Part shown: positions 2,934 to 14,512 of the stretch, in pieces
How the letters are laid out: each line of letters opens with the position of its first letter
Numbering within the stretch: position 1 is the first letter of the stretch
Assembly: GCF_001617365.1 (NCBI RefSeq)
Contig: NZ_LVJR01000027.1
Span: 1-64,000, forward strand
Length of the DNA: 64,000 nt
Source of the DNA: Rhodanobacter sp. FW104-R8
GTDB lineage: Bacteria; Pseudomonadota; Gammaproteobacteria; Xanthomonadales; Rhodanobacteraceae
Direction of reading: 5' to 3'
The notes under the pieces: model-generated
Told to the model about the DNA's origin: nothing
What the model saw: the letters and a program-made list of their open reading frames with translations, nothing else
Databases searched by the model: none
Translations under genes and position numbers: made by a program

Positions 2934-3016
2934 TGCCCGGCCGCCCGGGTCACTGAAAGCATCCCGATGCAGGGCATGCACGATGATGGCGTGGTTTCCA
3001 GGCCCGCGTTGAAACC

Positions 3017-4150
3017 ATGAATCCATCCACGCAAAAGCCACCCGGCTGGGCCCGGCACCTGCAGAACGAATGGCTGCTGCTGGTGTTCGCGCTGCTGGCG
3101 CTGGCGCTTGCCGTGCTGGATCCCCGTCCCGCGAGCGACTACCGGCGCTGGCTGCAGTTGCCCACGCTGGCCGGCCTGACGGGCCTGCTGATCGCGATCC
3201 AGGGCATCCGCGACAGCGGACGGGTGCAGCACGCGGCGGTGGCCGTGGTGGCGCGCGCGCATTCGCTGCGCAGCCTGGGCCTGCTGCTGGTGGTGGCGAC
3301 GGCACTCCTGTCGATGGTGCTGACCAACGACGTGAGCCTGTTCCTGATCGTGCCGCTGACCCTGGCGATCGGTGGCGTCTCGAACCTGCCGGTGCTGCGC
3401 ATGGTGGTGCTGGAGGCGCTGGCGGTGAACGCGGGCTCCACCCTGAGCCCGATCGGCAACCCGCAGAACCTGCTGCTGTGGCAGCACTCGCGGCTGTCGT
3501 TCCTGCATTTCGCGGCGGCGATGCTGCCGGCCGCCACGGTGACGTTCGTGCTGCTGGCGGCGCTCGCCTGGCTGTGGCTGCCGCGCGATCGCGTGGCGTT
3601 GAACCCGGAACGGATCGACGGCATCGCGGCCTCGACCCGCCTCGGCGCGTGCTCGATGGCCGCACTGGTGGGCATGGTGCTGCTGATGGAATACGGCCAC
3701 GCGCTGCCCGGCGCGCTGCTGATGCTGGCGCTGTTCGCCCTGCTGGCGCGATCGAGCCTGGCGCGGATCGACTGGCTGCTGCTGCTCACCTTCGCCGCGA
3801 TCTTCCTGGCCGTGGGCCACCTCGCCGAGCTGCCGCTGGTACAGCGGATGCTGGACCGGCTGGACTTCAGCCAGCCGCTGACCCTGTACGCCAGCGGCAT
3901 CGTCGCCTCGCAGCTGATCAGCAACGTGCCGGCGACAGTGCTGCTGCTCGAGCGCACGCCCGATGCGACCGCGCTGGCGGTGGCGGTGAACGTGGGCGGC
4001 TTTGGCACCGCGATCGGTTCGCTGGCGAACCTGATCGCGCTGCGCTTGGCGAAGCAGCCGCATGGCCTGCGGCTGCTACACCTGGTGTCGATTCCGTTCC
4101 TGCTGGTGTGCGCGCCGCTGGTGTACCTGGCCTGGCGCTGGGTGGGCTGA
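3017..4150 (+). CDS. ArsB/NhaD (SLC13-like) family anion transporter
   Basis: This 377-residue polytopic membrane protein has about ten hydrophobic segments. The sequence MVLTNDVSLFLIVPL near residue 100 and the later GIVASQLISNVPATVLLLE near residue 295 are the two inverted NDV / SNVPAT loops that line the substrate site in the ArsB/NhaD/citrate-transporter superfamily. STLSPIGNPQNL near residue 145 is the typical S-x-x-x-x-x-GNPQN segment. It resembles E. coli YbiR more than true ArsB because it is shorter and has no arsenic genes nearby. The likely role is ion-coupled anion transport; the ion is unknown. It is preceded by the AmiS-like channel gene on the same strand with an 83-base gap, so the two may be co-transcribed. 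Confidence 0.8.
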   Translation: MNPSTQKPPGWARHLQNEWLLLVFALLALALAVLDPRPASDYRRWLQLPTLAGLTGLLIAIQGIRDSGRVQHAAVAVVARAHSLRSLGLLLVVATALLSMVLTNDVSLFLIVPLTLAIGGVSNLPVLRMVVLEALAVNAGSTLSPIGNPQNLLLWQHSRLSFLHFAAAMLPAATVTFVLLAALAWLWLPRDRVALNPERIDGIAASTRLGACSMAALVGMVLLMEYGHALPGALLMLALFALLARSSLARIDWLLLLTFAAIFLAVGHLAELPLVQRMLDRLDFSQPLTLYASGIVASQLISNVPATVLLLERTPDATALAVAVNVGGFGTAIGSLANLIALRLAKQPHGLRLLHLVSIPFLLVCAPLVYLAWRWVG

Positions 4151-4159
4151 CGGCCGCGC

Positions 4160-4936
4160 TCAATCGTCGCCGTGCGGCACGCTGACCTTGCCCTTCACGC
4201 CGGAGTGGCCGACGTCGCCGCTGCCCTTGGCGCCGAGACTGAGATCGCCGGCCACGTCGTGCACGTTCAGGTCGCCCGAGCCCAGCGTATCGGCGCGCAC
4301 GCTGCCGCCGACGTTGCGCAACGTGACGTCGCCCGAGCCGATGCTGCCGATCCGGGCGTCGCCCTTGATGCCCGCGGCCTTGAAGTCGCCGGAGCCGACC
4401 GAGCCCAGCTCCAGGCTGCCGATATCGGTGGCATCGACGTCGCCCGAGCCCACGCTGGTGGCGAACTTGCCGGACACCTGGCGCACGTGCAGGTCGCCCG
4501 AGCCCACGCTGGTCTGCAGCTGCTGCACGCCGCTGACGTCGGCGTCGCCGGAACCCACGCGCACGGTGACCGGCAGGTTCGCCGGCAGTTGCACGGTGAC
4601 GTCGAGGCTGCTGTAGGAACTGCCGCCGAACAGGCTGAAACTGAAGCCGCCGCTGCCGCCGATATCGATCAGCAGCTGGTCGCCCTCGCGCCGCTGGGTG
4701 ACCTGCAGCTTGTCCAGCGCCGCCTGCTCGGAGGCGCAGGCGCGGCCGTGAAGGGTGAGGCCCCTGGCGTTGCCGCTACCGGTCAGGTGCAGGTCGTGGC
4801 TGTTCACCTCGATCTGCACGCCGCGCACGTCGGCCAGGTCGAGTTGCAGGTTGCGCGGCGCCTCGTACTTGCACGGCGTGGCGGCGAAGGCGGCGATCGG
4901 TGCGAACAGCAGGGCTGTGGTGAGAAGGCGGCGCAT
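4160..4936 (-). CDS. Exported DUF2807 (head GIN domain) protein with GSGD repeats
   Basis: The start was set at MRRLLTTALLFAPIAAFAA, which gives a clear Sec signal peptide and has an AAGGAGAG ribosome site just upstream; the frame is open 28 codons further but that part has no coding character. The mature protein (about 240 residues) is built of short repeats of roughly 20 residues, with seven GSGD tetrapeptides plus looser versions (GSGN, GGSGG). This is the pattern of DUF2807, the putative auto-transporter adhesin head domain, which folds as a right-handed beta helix. Cysteines occur only near the N-terminus. Location is periplasm or cell surface. Function in this family is not established. 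It is convergent with the transporter gene, ten bases away. Confidence 0.75.
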   Translation of the reverse strand: MRRLLTTALLFAPIAAFAATPCKYEAPRNLQLDLADVRGVQIEVNSHDLHLTGSGNARGLTLHGRACASEQAALDKLQVTQRREGDQLLIDIGGSGGFSFSLFGGSSYSSLDVTVQLPANLPVTVRVGSGDADVSGVQQLQTSVGSGDLHVRQVSGKFATSVGSGDVDATDIGSLELGSVGSGDFKAAGIKGDARIGSIGSGDVTLRNVGGSVRADTLGSGDLNVHDVAGDLSLGAKGSGDVGHSGVKGKVSVPHGDD

Positions 4937-5097
4937 GGGACTCTCCTTGAGTGGTCGGCCCGCCTGGGATGCGGCCGGCGGGAGAAAGGTTGCAAGAGCC
5001 TGCTCATGGTCTCCAGGCACGACGGATGCATGAGCGTCCCGGTCAACGCGCCCGGGCCGGTCGCGTTTCCCTGGTCTACCTGCCGAGGAGATTTACC

Positions 5098-5568
5098 ATG
5101 CACCGCAAAACCCTGTTCGCTTCCGCGCTGGCCGTGCTGATCGCCGGATCGGCCTCGTTCGTGATGGCCCAGAATACGCCGCCCCCGCCATCGGCTCCCC
5201 ACGCAGTAGCCAGCAGGGACATGCACGTGATCCGCGGCGATCGCGGCCACGGCATGCGCATGCACGGCTTCGACCACCGGCGCAGCGGCGTGATCGGCGA
5301 CCTGCGTGGGCTGGAACGGTTGTACATGCAGGCCGGCCGCAGCAAGGAAATGGCGTCGGTCTACAACGACGTACTGGCCAGGTCGCAGGATCCGCGCGTG
5401 CGCGACTATGTCTACCACCGGCTGGCCCGCCTGCAGGCGCAGCCGGCCAACGTGGACCAGGCCATCGCCACGCTGCGCAAGGGGCTGGACGAGAACCTGG
5501 CCGACGAGGCGAAGATGCGTGCCGCCTGGCAGCAGCGTGCCGGCGAGGCGGCACCGGCGGCCAGGTAA
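5098..5568 (+). CDS. Small exported protein of unknown function
   Basis: The start at MHRKTLFASALAVLIAGSASFVMAQ gives a clean signal peptide with cleavage expected after AxA-like VMA, and GAGGAG lies eight bases upstream. The mature part is about 130 residues. It begins with a proline-rich and histidine/methionine-rich stretch (HGMRMHGFDH) that could bind metal, then helical sequence whose spacing (YNDVLARSQDPRVRDYVYHRLARLQ) looks like tetratricopeptide helices. I do not recognise a named family. It is divergent from the DUF2807 gene across 161 bases, so the two exported proteins could share a control region. Confidence 0.6.
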   Translation: MHRKTLFASALAVLIAGSASFVMAQNTPPPPSAPHAVASRDMHVIRGDRGHGMRMHGFDHRRSGVIGDLRGLERLYMQAGRSKEMASVYNDVLARSQDPRVRDYVYHRLARLQAQPANVDQAIATLRKGLDENLADEAKMRAAWQQRAGEAAPAAR

Positions 5569-5623: not shown

Positions 5624-6427
5624 CTACGGTTGGCGTTCCATCTGCTTGGCGCGCTGCCAGAGCTGTTCCTGTTCGGCCAGCGTGCGCTCGCCGAACGCGG
5701 TGCCCTCGGCCGCGGCCAGGTGTTCCATCCGGCGGAAACGCCGCTCGAACTTGGCATTGGCGTGGCGCAATGCCTGCGAGAAATCCACCCCGGCGTGGCG
5801 CGCCAGGTTCACCGCCACGAACAGCACGTCGCCGACCTCGTCCTGCAGCCGCGCCGGATCGGCGCCGTCGGCGAACTCGGCGCGCACCTCGTCCAGTTCC
5901 TCGGCCAGCTTGGCCAGCACCGGCTCGGGACCGGGCCAGGTGAAGCCGGTGGCGGCGGCACGCTGCTGCAGCTTGTGCGCCCGCTTCCATTCCGGCAGCC
6001 CAGCGGAGACGCCGGCCAGCGCGCTGTGGTCGACGGCGTCGCCCTTGTCGGCACGCTCGGCCGCCTTGATCGCCTCCCACGCCTGCATCTGCTCGCCGAG
6101 ATCGGCGTAGCGCGTGTCGCCGAACACGTGCGGATGGCGCCGCACCATTTTGGCGCCGATCGCGTGCACCACGTCGGCGAAATCGAACAGCCCCTGCTCT
6201 GCCGCCATCTGCGCGTGGAATGCCACCTGCAGCAGCAGGTCGCCCAGCTCGTCGCGCAGGTCGTGCCAGTCGCGGCGATCGATCGCGTCGGCCACCTCGT
6301 AGGCTTCCTCGATCGTGTACGCCGCGATCGAGGCGAAATCCTGCCGCACGTCCCATGGGCAGCCGCGCTCGGGATCGCGCAGGCGCGCCATGATCGCGAG
6401 CAGATCATCGAGGGAGTGTCGGGTCAT
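5624..6427 (-). CDS. mazG: Nucleoside triphosphate pyrophosphohydrolase MazG
   Basis: This is a 267-residue MazG of the usual two-domain length. The protein hydrolyses all canonical nucleoside triphosphates to monophosphate and pyrophosphate, and in E. coli lowers ppGpp after MazF action. The metal-binding motif appears twice: EEAYEVADAI followed by DELGDLLLQ in the N-terminal domain (residues about 40-65), and EELDEVRAEF followed by DEVGDVLFV in the C-terminal domain (about 175-205). RGCPWD near residue 20 is the usual N-terminal signature. It is the last gene of a minus-strand group with cysQ, nudE and an IMPase-like gene, all acting on nucleotide or phosphate-ester metabolites. No mazEF is present here. 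Confidence 0.95.
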   Translation of the reverse strand: MTRHSLDDLLAIMARLRDPERGCPWDVRQDFASIAAYTIEEAYEVADAIDRRDWHDLRDELGDLLLQVAFHAQMAAEQGLFDFADVVHAIGAKMVRRHPHVFGDTRYADLGEQMQAWEAIKAAERADKGDAVDHSALAGVSAGLPEWKRAHKLQQRAAATGFTWPGPEPVLAKLAEELDEVRAEFADGADPARLQDEVGDVLFVAVNLARHAGVDFSQALRHANAKFERRFRRMEHLAAAEGTAFGERTLAEQEQLWQRAKQMERQP

Positions 6428-6435
6428 GGGAAAGC

Positions 6436-6540
6436 GAGAAGTGAGTGGAGAGGAGTGAGAAAGGAGAGAGAGCGGCTTGACGCAAGGACGTCCGACCGGC
6501 CGGATGCGGGATGGCTTTTACTCACTTCTCACTCCCCGTT
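6436..6540. repeat. Purine/pyrimidine-rich inverted repeat between cysQ and mazG
   Basis: GAGAAGTGAGT at 6436-6446 is an exact inverse of ACTCACTTCTC at 6520-6530. The arms lie in gagtgagaag-type purine-rich sequence that recurs around them. The right arm runs into the last codons of cysQ. There is no T-run, so it is not an obvious intrinsic terminator. Confidence 0.45.
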
Positions 6541-7350
6541 CCTCGCTCCTCGTTCTAGGCGCGCGGCCCAGTCGATATCGCGGTCGCCCACCGCGACGAA
6601 CTCGGGGTTCAGCAGCGACTCGCCGCGGTTGTAGCGGAACGGCTGTCCCGCCAGGTCGAGCACGGCGCCGCCGGCCTCGTCCAGCACGCACTGCGCGGCG
6701 GCGGTGTCCCATTCGCTGGTGGGACCGAGGCGCAGGTACAGGTCCGCCGCGCCGCGCGCGATCAGGCAGAACTTCAGCGACGAGCCCAGCGGCACCAGCT
6801 GGTAGTCGCTGCCGACCAGCGACCGCAGCCGCTCGCCCTGCGCGCCGCCGTGCGAACGGCTGCCGGCCACCAACGGCGGCTGCGCCAGCGCGCGGGTGCG
6901 GATGCGTTGCCAGGGGCCGCCGGCTTCGGCCTGCAGCCATGCCCCCTGCCCTTGCTCGGCGACGTAGAGCTCGCCGGTCACCGGCGCCAGCACCACGCCG
7001 AGCGCGCTGCGCCGGTCGTCGATCAGGGCGATGTTGACGGTGAACTCGCCGTTGCGCTTGATGAACTCGCGGGTGCCATCGAGCGGATCGACCAGCCAGT
7101 AGCGCGACCAGTGCCGGCGCTCGGACCACGGCAGCGCCTTCGCCTCCTCCGACAGCACCGGCAGCACCGGATCGAGCGCGGCCAGGCCGGCCATGATGAC
7201 CCGCTGCGCGGCCAGGTCGGCGGCGGTCAACGGCGAGGCATCGTCCTTGGTCTGCACCGCGAAGTCGCCGCGGTAGACCTCGAGGATGGCGGCCCCGGCG
7301 GCGCGGGCGATCTCGCCGACTTTCCGGGCGAAAGCGGGCGCCATGCTCAT
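6529..7350 (-). CDS. cysQ: 3'(2'),5'-bisphosphate nucleotidase CysQ
   Basis: The 273-residue protein belongs to the inositol monophosphatase superfamily. It hydrolyses 3'-phosphoadenosine 5'-phosphate, a by-product of sulfate assimilation, to AMP. WLVDPLDGTREFIKRNGEF near residue 85 contains the metal-binding D-P-L-D-G-T motif with the CysQ-type REFI continuation, and the C-terminal WDTAAAQCVLDEAGG is the second metal/substrate motif. The start was placed at MSMAPAF because its ATG overlaps the nudE stop (ATGA), which indicates translational coupling; the longer open frame upstream is out-of-frame nudE sequence. It acts in the cytoplasm. Confidence 0.92.
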   Translation of the reverse strand: MSMAPAFARKVGEIARAAGAAILEVYRGDFAVQTKDDASPLTAADLAAQRVIMAGLAALDPVLPVLSEEAKALPWSERRHWSRYWLVDPLDGTREFIKRNGEFTVNIALIDDRRSALGVVLAPVTGELYVAEQGQGAWLQAEAGGPWQRIRTRALAQPPLVAGSRSHGGAQGERLRSLVGSDYQLVPLGSSLKFCLIARGAADLYLRLGPTSEWDTAAAQCVLDEAGGAVLDLAGQPFRYNRGESLLNPEFVAVGDRDIDWAARLERGARNGE

Positions 7351-11303: not shown

Positions 11304-11404
11304 GGCGGGAACCTCCGGTGGCACGGGGAAGAGGCACCTCCATGCTGCGCCGATCCCGCGCTCCGGGCAACCGCATCCGCGGCGGGAATCCCGTTCCGCG
11401 CCAC

Positions 11405-11423
11405 GGTAGTGTCTCAGTTTGAA
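11405..11423 (+). repeat. Left terminal inverted repeat of the transposon
   Basis: GGTAGTGTCTCAGTTTGAA, exact inverse of 14427-14445. Similarity continues a few bases inward with a one-base gap (ATCT versus TCTT). The GG start is typical of IS1-family ends. Confidence 0.9.
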
Positions 11424-11433
11424 ATCTGCGTTT

Positions 11434-11943
11434 TTAGCGCCTGACTTTGGACTTTTTCGAAGCTGAAGTCGCCGGCTTGACCTGCTGCCCTTGCTCTTGT
11501 TTAGCACTGAAATGCCGCGCCAAGATGAAGGCCCCCCCAAAGACCGTAATGGCTGTTCCGCCAATAGATCCGGCTGCGATGTACGCGCCGACGTATGCGA
11601 GGAAACATGTCGCGCCCATTGCAAGCGCGAACGCCGCGATGGCACATAGTTGGCCTCGTTTGATCGCATCCACTTCCGAGCGCATGCAATGATGCCTCGT
11701 GATCTGCTCACTCTTGGCCATCCCCACTATTTCAAGAGCCAGTCCGGGGCTAGCTTGCTCATACTCAGCTAGTTGCTGGGGGGACGGGAGCGGCCCAGAA
11801 TGAACAGCGACCTGCAAAAAATATTGCTTCGCAGCCTGAAACGCCTTGGGATCAAGACGCTGTAATTCAGGCGGAACAGGTGGAAGTTTTGTGGGGGCGT
11901 TTTTCGGATCGTTGTCCGGCGTCGCTATTTCGCTGTTCATCAT
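11434..11943 (-). CDS. DUF2335 family membrane protein
   Basis: The 169-residue protein matches DUF2335 (predicted membrane protein): a proline-rich N-terminus, the hallmark GPLPSPQQLAEYEQASPG near residue 50, an amphipathic segment GMAKSEQITRHH, then two C-terminal membrane helices (about residues 100-145) and a basic tail ending KKSKVRR. DUF2335 proteins are often found on phages and mobile elements; their role is not established. It lies just inside the left end of the transposon, transcribed outward. Its N-terminus overlaps the end of a small upstream ORF by 77 bases, which suggests coupling if that ORF is real. Confidence 0.75.
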   Translation of the reverse strand: MMNSEIATPDNDPKNAPTKLPPVPPELQRLDPKAFQAAKQYFLQVAVHSGPLPSPQQLAEYEQASPGLALEIVGMAKSEQITRHHCMRSEVDAIKRGQLCAIAAFALAMGATCFLAYVGAYIAAGSIGGTAITVFGGAFILARHFSAKQEQGQQVKPATSASKKSKVRR

Positions 11944-12100
11944 AAGAGCTTAGCGCATGGCGCAAGTCATTGCCGACTGCCTGCCAATCACGCTCAGGAC
12001 CGTTTGCCCAACGCTGCTTAGAGCAAAAATTCGGGTCTGGGTACAGGTCAAGAATGCTCGTGAACCCGTACCAGAAGTACGTTTTTCCTAGCTTCTTCAC
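11867..12100 (-). CDS. Possible small protein upstream of the DUF2335 gene
   Basis: This ORF encodes 77 residues from a GTG start preceded by GGGAAGGAAC, a good ribosome site. It begins KKLGKTYFWYGFTSILDLYP and contains DWQAVGNDLRHAL, which reads like a real folded protein rather than random translation. The last 25 codons overlap the DUF2335 gene in another frame. No family is recognised. It would be the first gene of a two-gene minus-strand unit, 72 bases downstream of the transposase stop. Confidence 0.45.
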   Translation of the reverse strand: MKKLGKTYFWYGFTSILDLYPDPNFCSKQRWANGPERDWQAVGNDLRHALSSYDEQRNSDAGQRSEKRPHKTSTCSA

Positions 12101-12172
12101 TGTTCCTTCCCTCTGTCCTTAAATCACCAGTTGATGATAGCCCCATAGTAGACACGGAATGCGTATCTAAGT

Positions 12173-13042
12173 TCAAGTGGAAGATAGATTTTTTTTGTAC
12201 GGGCCGCGCTTCTTGGCAATCGGCACAGGCACTAGCGCCGCAATCTCTTCCAGCGACCATACATGGTCAGAGACGCCAGCCTCCATCGCAGGCGTGACGC
12301 GCAGCGTCTTGTGGATACGGCCAAAGTTGTAGTACATGAAGTGTAGCGCGACGGCGTGCGCGTGGTTCTCGATCTTCTTGCTGAAACCGTTGGTTAGGCG
12401 GGTGAAGCGGCGCATGGACATGCGCATGGTCAGGTTCTGGCGCTCGACGTAGCTGGTTGAAACCTTCGCCAGATCTGGGACGCCCTCGACCTTCACGATC
12501 TTGGTGCCGATCTGGCTGGCGGGACTGTATTTGCGTTCCGGTGATGCGGGGCCTTCGCCAAAGAGCTTGATGAGCATGGCGTAGTCGATATCCGCACCGA
12601 AGGCGCGTTCCACGGCATCGACGTAGACCTTGTGGCCGTCCGTCGTGAGCTGCACGCGGTTCGCCAAGCGGCCAGCCAGATCGGCAATGAAGGTATTAGC
12701 GGCCTCGCCATCGCGGCTCCCGACCATCCACGAAGCGACCAACTTGGTATCGGCGCAGATCGCCGTCCACGTCCATACGTCACCATAGCCGTTCGCGCCC
12801 TGCGCCACATTCTTTTGCTTAGCGCCGACGAACGACCATATTTCGTCGCACTGAACGCGCTTGCAGGGCAGATTGCACAGCGCGCTGTCCTGAAACTCGG
12901 CGCAGGCGGTGCCCACGTCCACAAGCAACTTGGTCACGGTATTGATAGAGCAGTCAGCCAGGCGGGAGGCTGCGCGAAGGCTCATCCCTTCAACGAGGAA
13001 GCCGAGGATTTTGGCGCGATCTTGGATGGACATGCAGTTCAT
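12173..13042 (-). CDS. IS1-family DDE transposase
   Basis: The protein has about 289 residues from MNCMSIQDR. An N-terminal helix-turn-helix (ILGFLVEGMSLRAASRLADCS and on to SINTVTKLL) is followed by the catalytic core. The likely DDE residues are D in VQCDEIWSF (near residue 75), D in LTTDGHKVYVD (near 145) and E in TSYVERQNLTMRM (near 205). The Y-x-E-R-Q-N-L-T-x-R motif and the later FSKKIENHAHAVALHFMYYNF match the IS1 family. Two upstream in-frame starts (to 13078) and MSIQ (13033) are alternatives. Unlike classical IS1, it is one uninterrupted frame with no frameshift. It is complete and shows no missing motif. Confidence 0.85.
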   Translation of the reverse strand: MNCMSIQDRAKILGFLVEGMSLRAASRLADCSINTVTKLLVDVGTACAEFQDSALCNLPCKRVQCDEIWSFVGAKQKNVAQGANGYGDVWTWTAICADTKLVASWMVGSRDGEAANTFIADLAGRLANRVQLTTDGHKVYVDAVERAFGADIDYAMLIKLFGEGPASPERKYSPASQIGTKIVKVEGVPDLAKVSTSYVERQNLTMRMSMRRFTRLTNGFSKKIENHAHAVALHFMYYNFGRIHKTLRVTPAMEAGVSDHVWSLEEIAALVPVPIAKKRGPYKKNLSST

Positions 13043-13060
13043 AATGAACATTATGCATGA
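13040..13060. repeat. Short palindrome at the transposase start
   Basis: ATAATG-AA-CATTAT occupies 13041-13054, with an outer CATGCA/TGCATG pair at 13031-13036 and 13054-13059. It covers the start codon region of the transposase and could be an operator or a hairpin limiting translation. Confidence 0.4.
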
Positions 13061-13072
13061 CCGGTCAAGTAA

Positions 13073-13161
13073 ATGCAAGCATAGTTACGTTTCTCATGCT
13101 TGCATTGTTGGCATGGATGCCAGTAGGATGCAAGCACTGACCTAGCGGAGCATGCTTGCAT
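13073..13161. promoter_or_regulatory. Four ATGCAAGCAT boxes in two inverted pairs
   Basis: The boxes are ATGCAAGCAT (13073-13082), ATGCTTGCAT (13096-13105), ATGCAAGCAC (13128-13137) and ATGCTTGCAT (13152-13161). They alternate in orientation and form two inverted pairs with almost equal spacing (23 and 24 bases start to start). They lie between the divergent transposase and P63C genes, and the last box includes the A and T of the P63C start codon, with the AGCGGAG ribosome site just before it. The arrangement suggests binding of a dimeric protein that could control both genes. A role as iterons is less likely, since no replication initiator is recognised. Confidence 0.6.
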
Positions 13162-14134
13162 GACAAAGAAGGACGAATCCAAGGTTGCTGGCGGCCAAGC
13201 GCGCGCGCTGGCTTTGTCCCCCGAGCAAAGGAAGGAAATTGCAATGACAGCAGCAGCGGCACGCTGGAAAGAGCGCCCCTTGCAAGCTACGCACAAGGGC
13301 AATTTCGAGAAGGACTTTGGCATCAACGTGGACTGCTATGTCCTGAATGATGCCGGTAAGACAGCTGTAATCAGCCAGCGAGGCATGGGGGATGCACTCG
13401 GCTTGACGAGCAGCGGTCAGGCATTCATCCGGTTCACGGCGGGAAAATCAATCGCGCCTTTCCTTGGTGCTGAAGTTCAGGAAAAAATCCAAAATCCCCT
13501 TAAATTTCAATGGTCGCCTCGTGGTGCTGAAAAGCAGTTTCCAGGCGATATCCACGGCTACGACGTGACGTTGCTGATCGACATTTGCAAGGCAATCATC
13601 GCGGCAGAGACAAACGGAAGCCTTCGTCCTAGCCAAGCCGGCATCGCTCAGCAGGCTCACATTATTCTCGGAGCCTCCGCCAAAGCTGGCATCAAGGGTC
13701 TTGTATACGCACTCTCTGGCTACGATGCCACTCGTGAAGAAGTCATTGCTGCCTTCAAGCTATATGTGAGGGACGAGGCGCGCGAATATGAAAAAGAGTT
13801 CCCAGCGCAGTTGTACGAAGAGTGGTATCGCCTCTATAAGCTACCGAAGCCTGAGCGCAACAAGCCGTGGAAATTCATGCACCTTACGATTGACCATGTG
13901 TACAAACCACTGGCGAATAGCAGCGGCAAGGTGTTGGATTTGACACGGCAAAAGCGCGATGCCAGTGGTGATCGGCACAAGCGTCTGCATCTTTTCCTGT
14001 CGGAAGTAGGCGTCAAAGCATTGCGCACGCAGCTTGGTCAGCTACTTGGCATTGCGCGCGTATCGAAGAACAGCGAGGAGTACGAAACATTCGTGAACAG
14101 ACTCTTCGGCGTCCAACAAGACTTGTTCAAGTAG
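13160..14134 (+). CDS. P63C-domain protein (phage Mx8 p63-type)
   Basis: This 324-residue protein carries a C-terminal P63C-like region (about residues 195-290, with RLYKLPKPERNKPWKFMHL and the following LTIDHVYKPLA), named after a Myxococcus phage Mx8 protein. The N-terminus has a basic GG-x-AR-x-LS-x-EQR-x-x-IA-x-x-AA-x-x-RW segment (residues about 11-36) that is also present in the small basic protein encoded convergently next to it. The middle contains FIRFTAGKSIAPFLG, suggesting a folded domain. P63C proteins are found in phages and mobile elements, and their function is not established. Its start is embedded in the fourth ATGCAAGCAT-type box, so self- or cross-regulation is plausible. 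It is a passenger gene of the transposon. Confidence 0.75.
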   Translation: MTKKDESKVAGGQARALALSPEQRKEIAMTAAAARWKERPLQATHKGNFEKDFGINVDCYVLNDAGKTAVISQRGMGDALGLTSSGQAFIRFTAGKSIAPFLGAEVQEKIQNPLKFQWSPRGAEKQFPGDIHGYDVTLLIDICKAIIAAETNGSLRPSQAGIAQQAHIILGASAKAGIKGLVYALSGYDATREEVIAAFKLYVRDEAREYEKEFPAQLYEEWYRLYKLPKPERNKPWKFMHLTIDHVYKPLANSSGKVLDLTRQKRDASGDRHKRLHLFLSEVGVKALRTQLGQLLGIARVSKNSEEYETFVNRLFGVQQDLFK

Positions 14135-14369
14135 GTTTCGTCCACCGCTTCTTTGCAGCCTTCTTCGCAATAGCTGACCGTTCCTCAGCGGTCAGCTTTT
14201 TTGCGCGCGCCTTCCCACCCTTGAGCCCACCCTTCCGGCCAAGCGCGACCGCTGCCGGGTTCTTCCCGTCGTCCGTCTTGGCATCATCCACTTCCCCCGT
14301 CGCTATCGCAGCGATGAGGTGAGCTAGCTGGTTCGGGTCGCGTGGACGCTTGGGCTTTGATGTGTTCAT
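14127..14369 (-). CDS. Small basic (histone-like) protein
   Basis: The protein has 80 residues from MNTSKPKRPRDPNQLAHLI. The second half is lysine/alanine-rich: GRKGGLKGGKARAKKLTAEE followed by RSAIAKKAAKKRW. It resembles small KGG-type or histone H1-like DNA-binding proteins. The GGKARA...RW segment is shared with the N-terminus of the P63C protein. The gene converges with the P63C gene and their stop codons overlap by eight bases. A CATAC-N5-GTATG palindrome (14367-14381) covers its start. An upstream ATG in the same frame (14420) lacks coding character. Confidence 0.65.
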   Translation of the reverse strand: MNTSKPKRPRDPNQLAHLIAAIATGEVDDAKTDDGKNPAAVALGRKGGLKGGKARAKKLTAEERSAIAKKAAKKRWTKPT

Positions 14370-14426
14370 ACAGGAAGTATGCGTCCGCATGCCTGAGCGC
14401 TCAAGGAATCGGCAGAGCAATCAAGA

Positions 14427-14445
14427 TTCAAACTGAGACACTACC
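14427..14445 (-). repeat. Right terminal inverted repeat of the transposon
   Basis: TTCAAACTGAGACACTACC, exact inverse of 11405-11423, followed directly by the second CGCGCCAC target copy. Confidence 0.9.
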
Positions 14446-14512
14446 CGCGCCACCGGCGCCGTGCCGCGGCCGGCAGGCTCGGCTATGCTGGAATTTTGCC
14501 GCCCGTCGTTCC

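Follow-up and report, generated by a model that had tools for sequence, protein, structure and literature searches.

Is an IS1-like element with several additional genes between its ends an ordinary insertion sequence, or a transposon that carries cargo as a rule? The question is raised by an element of 3,041 bp at positions 11405-14445 of the window, the 64,000-nucleotide stretch of contig NZ_LVJR01000027.1 from Rhodanobacter sp. FW104-R8 analysed here; a typical IS1 is about 0.8 kb long and has no passengers. A first-pass annotation made from the window alone had recognized 19-bp terminal inverted repeats, an 8-bp target duplication and an intact IS1-type transposase, and all three are borne out by the coordinates and by Pfam family PF03400: the repeats are perfect (19/19 complementary), the duplicated octamer CGCGCCAC is exact, and genes, ends and duplication are all intact (Table 1). 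By sequence comparison with its relatives, the element was found to be an intact IS1-like transposon. It belongs to a cargo-bearing group, in which a conserved small partner gene accompanies the transposase and the exchanged cargo often matches models of defence genes.

A group of IS1-like transposons with cargo

With the transposase as query, a scan of species genomes yielded at least 565 confirmed stretches, of which the best 80 were analysed, and a scan of the bacterial family gave a transposase match in 13 of 197 genomes, the own genome included. The species-scan and family matches and the window copy made up 97 loci, some genomes being represented twice. A complete element was defined by matching ends (at most 6 mismatches in 19) and an exact 8-bp duplication enclosing the transposase. 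By this definition 72 of the 97 loci were complete, leaving 67 distinct elements after removal of 5 exact duplicates; the other 25 loci, in which one or both ends or the duplication were missing within the stretch examined, were excluded from the counts. Locus L191, from the same genus, became the 68th complete element after extension of its flanks. The 67 elements range from 1,947 to 4,908 bp (median 2,987 bp), and 30 of them have perfect 19-bp repeats. The 8-bp duplication, present in 67/67, is not due to chance, because the left octamer was matched in 2 of 25,214 trials after the right end had been shifted by 9-200 bp.

Besides the transposase and the small gene, every one of the 67 elements holds one or more further open reading frames (ORFs) of at least 60 amino acids (aa), chosen mechanically with the longest first, and the first-pass statement that passengers are rare in the IS1 family fails within this IS1-like group. 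According to the record titles, the hosts include alpha-, beta-, gamma- and deltaproteobacteria, Acidobacteria, Verrucomicrobia, Nitrospirae, Planctomycetes and Sphingobacteriales; many of these records are metagenome bins, the labels of which may err. It is highly improbable that the window element is an ordinary IS1-type element that captured its neighbouring genes in a single event and resembles the others by coincidence. Such a capture would agree with its single copy in the genome and with the plain annotation of its transposase relatives as 'IS1 family transposase', but the further ORFs and the same core layout recur in all 67 complete relatives, and the G+C content is lower in the element than in its flanks in 66/67. 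By this comparison of sequences the capture reading is in effect refuted.

The genome (3.72 Mb, 124 contigs) has no second copy of the window element, and a genome-wide search for the ends with at most 3 mismatches returned its own two (the control with a reversed pattern gave 1 chance match). Of the 45 genomes of the genus, 39 (counting the own genome) gave a match to the joined flanks. The stretch is uninterrupted in the congeners G052 and G189 (72% and 70% identity, respectively); the other listed matches, the window's own apart, covered part of the probe only, mostly the right flank, and have no bearing on the empty site. To look for empty sites keeping a single CGCGCCAC had been proposed at first pass; the uninterrupted site does exist, but the octamer is not preserved there in either congener. 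The position of the cargo between the ends in all 67 distinct elements bears out the idea of a self-contained mobile module, and, together with the uninterrupted sites, excludes the opposite outcome, in which the ends would surround the transposase alone and the cargo would belong to the chromosome.

Among relatives, the element of congener G126 is identical to that of Dyella sp. S184 (contig L005). Congener G105 carries a 478-bp element (L193:4765-5242) with both ends and an exact GGGTAGAC duplication, 84% identical to the small-gene end plus a remnant of the transposase, and by its sequence this is an internal-deletion, non-autonomous derivative resembling a miniature inverted-repeat transposable element. 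A search of phage DNA did not find a copy of the window element, and the matches in plasmid DNA (12 records) were all confined to the transposase stretch, none covering 80% of the query.

A small basic protein as partner of the transposase

A profile built from 46 small ORFs matched all 67 elements, and the small basic protein is encoded by a separate gene in 66 of them; it is on this account a core protein and not a passenger. The first-pass annotation had listed DUF2335, a GTG-start ORF, P63C and the small basic protein as passengers, none of them a known transposition gene. Pfam matches and conservation confirm the set of genes, with the small protein moved from the cargo to the core; as it accompanies the transposase in 66/67 elements, it may serve in transposition. 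In 66/66 the gene has the same strand as the transposase and lies beyond it, at the opposite end of the element, with an open frame that starts within 130 bp of the element end in 53/66. Its best reading in the window is 14127-14369, the start being conserved among relatives, and the consensus of the protein is MxxxPKRPRDxNQLAKxIVDxATGE...KxPAAVALGRKGGLKGGKARAxxLTxExRxEIAxKAAxARW. Elements L036 and L040 match the profile over the N-terminal part only, and in L097 the gene is split in two frames. The predicted model consists of three helices (12-24, 38-56 and 61-76), with a mean predicted local distance difference test score (pLDDT) of 77 and a predicted template modelling score (pTM) of 0.35.

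A class-wide scan of 274 genomes located the small protein in 7 of them, at 8 places, and two further matches were the N-termini of P63C proteins. Six of the 8 places have a transposase within 3 kb (one broken), and 7 have an element end within about 320 bp. The transposase itself was found in 6 of the 274 genomes, once as a fragment without the small gene. These places are not all independent of the 67 elements, because the genome of the window and that of L010 (G425) are among the 274. Two stretches, L220:1476-2018 and L221:2458-2870, have one end and the small gene and no detected transposase, and appear to be truncated or decayed elements.

Relationship to known transposons

The transposase matches PF03400 above the cut-off (36.8 versus 24.1 bits). 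Models of IS240/IS6-type DDE transposases also match it, below their cut-offs, and no IS1595/ISXO2-type DDE domain was among the Pfam matches up to E 1. With the NCBIfam equivalog for IS1, NF033558, it scores 68 bits against a cut-off of 100. Classical IS1 has a frameshifted insA/insB' transposase, although single-ORF members also exist, and the family has short terminal inverted repeats and duplications of 8-9 bp. The present group agrees with it in the PF03400 DDE transposase, the ends starting with GG and the short 8-bp duplication, but differs in the length of 1.9-4.9 kb, in the partner gene (66/67), in the cargo (67/67) and in the transposase, a single uninterrupted ORF without the insA/insB' frameshift layout. 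We did not file the element as a plain IS1 member, because it stays below the curated NCBIfam cut-off; it would rather work like a miniature defence transposon.

The IS1595 family, reportedly described with passenger genes by Siguier, Gagnevin and Chandler in 2009, is likewise IS1-related, with 8-bp duplications and passengers in some members, but the window element has no match to its type of transposase domain. Tn7-like transposons are mobile elements with interchangeable defence systems; the present elements share such cargo, but are far smaller, with an IS1-like transposase and a single core partner gene. For ISMhu11, which we take to be the name of an IS1 subgroup, and for a paper titled on an IS1-like group with passengers or defence cargo, the literature search, which left subscription papers and ISfinder aside, gave no match. 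The Tn3-family transposons (PMC7157771) are alike in that toxin-antitoxin cargo adjoins the transposition genes, possibly with shared promoters, and that related copies carry different passengers; they differ by another transposase, and no resolvase gene was recognized in the present elements, where res sites were not searched for. An unannotated relative of the transposase (33% identity) was noticed in the 321-kb genome of Brevundimonas phage vB_BpoS-Gurke (ON529850.1:174794-175669).

Exchange and identity of the cargo

Interchangeable cargo slots lie between and beside the two core genes, and in the window slot 1 is filled by P63C and slot 2 by the small GTG-start gene plus DUF2335. The same gene set between the same ends was found in part: L191 shares slot 2 with the window element and L007 shares slot 1, but neither shares both. 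L191 has both ends, the small gene, the transposase and slot 2 in common with the window element; the match covers 1-158 at the end with the small gene, a stretch running from the transposase into DUF2335, and the other end. Its slot 1 (5831-6751) differs: the place of P63C is taken by an unrelated 306-aa protein without Pfam family, which is a candidate defence gene product. In L007 the small gene, P63C and the transposase are as in the window, and slot 2 has no counterpart.

On the tree of 67 transposases, a quick one in which 28 of 64 inner branches are weak, the 14 cargo labels of 53 rows need 36 changes; the mean of 200 label shuffles is 38.0. Inheritance of the cargo along with the transposase was rejected with changes so near the shuffle mean, and none is detectable, because 40 of the 200 shuffles were as low as 36. 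For P63C alone, with 11 carriers, the count is 10 changes against a shuffle mean of 10.4, and different cargo is found with transposases 95-96% identical (L085/L087 and L057/L064).

In order to identify the cargo, 143 ORFs in two sets (62 and 81) were scanned. Among the 25 commonest of the 28 and 69 Pfam families in the two sets, HTH_3 (8 + 13), ImmA/IrrE peptidase (6 + 7) and P63C (6 + 5) recur in both; NYN (3), GmrSD (2), SocA (2) and HigB-like (2) come from the first set, Abi_2 (2), AAA_21 (2) and nSTAND1 (2) from the second, and HicB is also represented. If bare helix-turn-helix (HTH) domains are set aside, no kind of cargo is by these counts more frequent than ImmA/IrrE proteins and P63C. 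PADLOC models (E <= 1e-5; 25 of the 53 and 167 families listed) identified PD-Lambda-2_B in 4/62 and 5/81, RmrA in up to 3/62 and up to 6/81, HEC-06 and SspE 3 times each, and PtuA, AriA and RmrT twice each. Scans of single representatives placed RmrA beside RmrT in L048, PDC-M63A beside PDC-M63B in L041, GmrSD in L036, STAND/AAA in L054 and AAA_21 in L067; L078 has PD-Lambda-2_B, with no match at E 1e-8 for its two neighbours, and was on this account not taken as a whole PD-Lambda-2 system. When counted by ORF cluster (PD-Lambda-2_B-like 9, Rmr 7, GmrSD 2, STAND 2, AAA_21 2 and M63 2), at least 24/67 elements hold defence-type cargo by cluster membership, most members not having been scanned singly, and P63C adds 11/67. 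The system names are provisional, because the ImmA/IrrE-HTH models overlap. A Clp-protease-like cargo protein (L003:5898-6698) is unlike the usual defence cargo.

As a control, 143 flanking ORFs drawn at random from 317 were scanned, the counts being those of families and not of single proteins; no PADLOC family was found in more than 2/143. The flanks matched 105 families in total (mostly single ORFs, such as methyltransferases and PDC-S01/S02), compared with 53 and 167 for the cargo sets. The number of PADLOC families does not separate cargo from flanks; recurrence does.

The cargo might serve the addiction or maintenance of the element and not the defence of the host, as proposed for toxin-antitoxin genes of Tn3 transposons in PMC7157771. 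Besides this precedent, the presence of HigB, HicB, SocA, ImmA/IrrE-HTH and NYN families points in that direction; however, anti-phage models without obvious addiction role (GmrSD/SspE, PtuA-like plus STAND/AAA ATPases, RmrA-RmrT) and two of the phage positions of P63C, in ST104 and 611R6 (see below), argue against it, and we regard it as rather unlikely.

The DUF2335 gene of slot 2 matches PF10097 above the cut-off (36 versus 25 bits), and L191 has a 51% identical gene at the equivalent place. No Pfam family was found for the GTG-start gene; substitutions between its two copies, in the part without overlap to other ORFs, are third-position-biased (17/34 versus 8/33 and 6/33). The overlapping ATG ORF 12048-12260 was rejected as a gene because such bias is absent (5, 2 and 5 of 24 each, small numbers). 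The literature search gave 2 papers that name DUF2335. The element lies between what we take to be genes for a small secreted protein and an RsmE-like methyltransferase, as read from the ORFs.

Table 1. Features of the transposon and its target site (positions in the window)
Feature	Position	Strand	Basis
Target-site duplication, left copy (CGCGCCAC)	11397-11404		
Terminal inverted repeat, nearer transposase 3' side	11405-11423		consensus over 67 elements
DUF2335 membrane protein, 169 aa, slot-2 cargo	11434-11943	-	Pfam PF10097; phrog_3996 ('moron' category)
Small GTG-start gene, 77 aa, slot-2 cargo, overlaps DUF2335 start	11867-12100	-	conserved in L191, third-position bias
IS1-like DDE transposase	12173-13078, conserved start 13042	-	PF03400, relatives aligned
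Palindromic motif GCATGACCGGTCAAG preceding transposase	13055-13069		
Four TGCAAGCA/TGCTTGCA copies (starts 13074, 13097, 13129, 13153), putative P63C operators	13074-13160		
P63C protein, 324 aa, slot-1 cargo	13160-14134	+	PF10546; phrog_2384 E 9e-87; predicted model
Small basic core protein, 80 aa, C-terminal GGKARA..ARW helical hairpin	14127-14369	-	separate gene in 66/67 elements, predicted model
Palindromic motif GCCTGAGCGCTCAAG preceding small gene	14391-14405		
Terminal inverted repeat, small-gene end	14427-14445		
Target-site duplication, right copy	14446-14453		

P63C in transposons and phages

P63C matches PF10546 above the cut-off (42.8 versus 26.1 bits) and is also a phage gene. 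In the predicted model (mean pLDDT 75.6, pTM 0.55), residues 6-36 form an N-terminal hairpin and residues 42-135, approximately, a mixed alpha/beta middle; the C-terminal part, with the P63C domain, is helical. Against a library of viral folds, its best match is an unnamed protein (E 2.4e-4); p63 of phage Mx8 was also found, together with a weak likeness to repressor and Bro-N proteins. A relative is present in 38 of 50,697 phage records, and the profile scan of viruses gave 434 stretches, the best 80 of which were analysed, with 81 viral loci in all. The phrog_2384 phage proteins are related to it over almost the full length; the hairpin is present in most of them and the operators described below accompany about half. 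The window copy differs in that it resides in a transposon.

In phage ST104, P63C follows cI directly and precedes gene 24 and sieB, the place that rexAB has in lambda. In 611R6 its neighbours are a putative regulatory gene, arc and ant; at the corresponding place P22 has mnt together with arc and ant, and its exclusion gene sieA is nearby. In Pkon1 it is beside Arc-like genes, and in the four remaining phage regions its place is the nin region or the vicinity of integrase, RecT or tail genes. On the P63C tree, which has 57 phage rows, the 12 rows from transposons are dispersed and need 10 changes, and the P63C of the window groups with viral contigs, the highest identity being 68% (L102). The transposase is present in 1/81 viral P63C loci within the stretch examined; this viral contig, L122, has the small gene, P63C and the transposase (3006-5283) and probably represents an element of the group inside a phage or prophage. 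The literature search, judged by titles and abstract starts and with subscription papers outside it, gave 9 papers that name P63C, and no title among them concerns the protein.

Predicted operators and the common hairpin

The four TGCAAGCA/TGCTTGCA sites lie within 90 bp between the divergent P63C and transposase genes, and one other is present in the whole 64 kb. Such sites occur upstream of the transposase in 7/11 elements with P63C versus 0/56 others, and upstream of P63C in 39/80 viral loci versus 13/1,681 background windows (the 80 loci are the 81 minus one without upstream sequence, L122 included). A count free of any preset pattern gave GCAAGCA as the 7-mer most often present at least twice upstream of viral P63C genes (41 loci). 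Where P63C is absent (56 elements), TCAAGCA (40) and ATGCTTG (37) are the most frequent 7-mers in front of the transposase gene; by their sequence they are the half-site also found in the P63C operators. Over the 67 elements, GCTTGA/TCAAGC occurs 6.6 times per kb upstream of the transposase, 3.7 times upstream of the small gene and 0.8 times elsewhere. The palindrome CTTGACCGGTCATGC with at most 3 mismatches is in 20/67 transposase and 17/67 small-gene upstream regions, compared with 0 and 0.15 in shuffles; the strict spaced form is in 0/556 background windows, and a looser form in 15/67 small-gene ends.

The small protein and the N-terminus of P63C have in common a GGxAR...ARW hairpin, and a hairpin profile built from transposon small proteins alone matches the viral P63C N-termini. 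Operators accompany viral P63C in 33/46 cases with a hairpin score of at least 30 bits, in 6/28 with 5-30 bits and in 0/6 below 5 bits, and among the element P63Cs in 7/8 with at least 30 bits and 0/3 below. In L087:350-1477, the hairpin of P63C is replaced by an apparent HTH, and the operators are missing too. By sequence, the hairpin is the only protein feature known to be common to the transposon and phage settings, and we infer that it binds ATGCTTG-type DNA as a new DNA-binding domain that would co-regulate transposase and cargo.

P63C could then be a regulator of transposition and not a defence protein, a second repressor, in the cargo slot, with the same hairpin as the small protein and with the transposase promoter as its site. 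The location of the operators, the common hairpin, the weak likeness of the model to phage repressor and Bro-N proteins, and five elements of 2.2-2.5 kb (L007, L017, L021, L025 and L044) in which P63C is the sole long non-core ORF are all in agreement with this role. Nevertheless, 56/67 elements manage without P63C, the slot is otherwise filled by other cargo in sister elements, and 80/81 viral loci lack a transposase in the stretch examined, with operators in about half. We hold a purely regulatory P63C to be rather unlikely.

Proposed mechanism and significance

The best explanation of the whole, which we consider probable, is a cargo transposon with a two-gene core, coupling through the hairpin and phage exclusion by P63C. 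Comparison shows a core made up of the IS1-like DDE transposase, towards one end, and of the small basic protein, at the opposite one; the GGTAGTGtcTCAGTTTGAA ends give duplications of 8 bp, and the slots often hold defence or toxin-antitoxin genes. The hairpins of the small protein and of P63C would bind the half-site ATGCTTG; through ATGCTTGA..TCAAGCAT-like sites the small protein would control the transposase as well as its own promoter, and through the four TGCAAGCA sites P63C would repress itself and the divergent transposase, so that cargo and transposition would be coupled. In this form the 'regulatory or host-interaction function' suggested at first pass is sharpened to defence or toxin-antitoxin cargo at the level of the group, with a putative shared operator system. 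The idea that P63C excludes phages as a single, autoregulated gene and has moved repeatedly between prophages and these transposons seems to us evenly balanced. For DUF2335 and its small partner a role as phage-exclusion genes is suggested with lower confidence. The combination of all these parts, with the hairpin as a new ATGCTTG-binding domain and common switch, P63C as an exclusion gene hopping between prophage and transposon, and DUF2335 plus partner as a second, membrane-acting module, is tentative and falls somewhat short of an even chance.

Several observations weigh against this explanation. On the side of the operators, 3/56 elements without P63C have a single operator octamer elsewhere, the GCTTGA signal may in part be a -35 box, the stricter spaced palindrome precedes the transposase in only 7/67, and L050 has a good hairpin and no operator. 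The association of hairpin and operator gives Fisher p 0.026 for presence or absence and Mann-Whitney p 1.5e-5 for the score (69 non-identical rows), both without correction for kinship. In L044 the small-protein profile matches only inside a P63C-like ORF, and there is no separate small gene. Searches of PDB by fold gave nothing at E <= 0.001 for either P63C or the small protein, and by sequence the best E values (0.73 and 0.62) are unconvincing. As for defence, PADLOC models were unmatched up to E 1 by P63C, DUF2335 and the small protein, some cargo is without defence link (the Clp protease, an aspartyl protease and several proteins without any family), and 5/7 phage regions place P63C elsewhere than in ST104 or 611R6.

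With these reservations, the group represents a minimal vehicle, of the size of an insertion sequence, that carries defence and toxin-antitoxin genes among hosts whose labels span many bacterial phyla. As a cassette is present in all complete copies examined, the group can be used as a collecting net, and its cargo (P63C, DUF2335 and clusters c17, c22 and c23) represents candidate defence genes. Two uncharacterised families, P63C and the small protein, would gain a predicted DNA site and testable roles.

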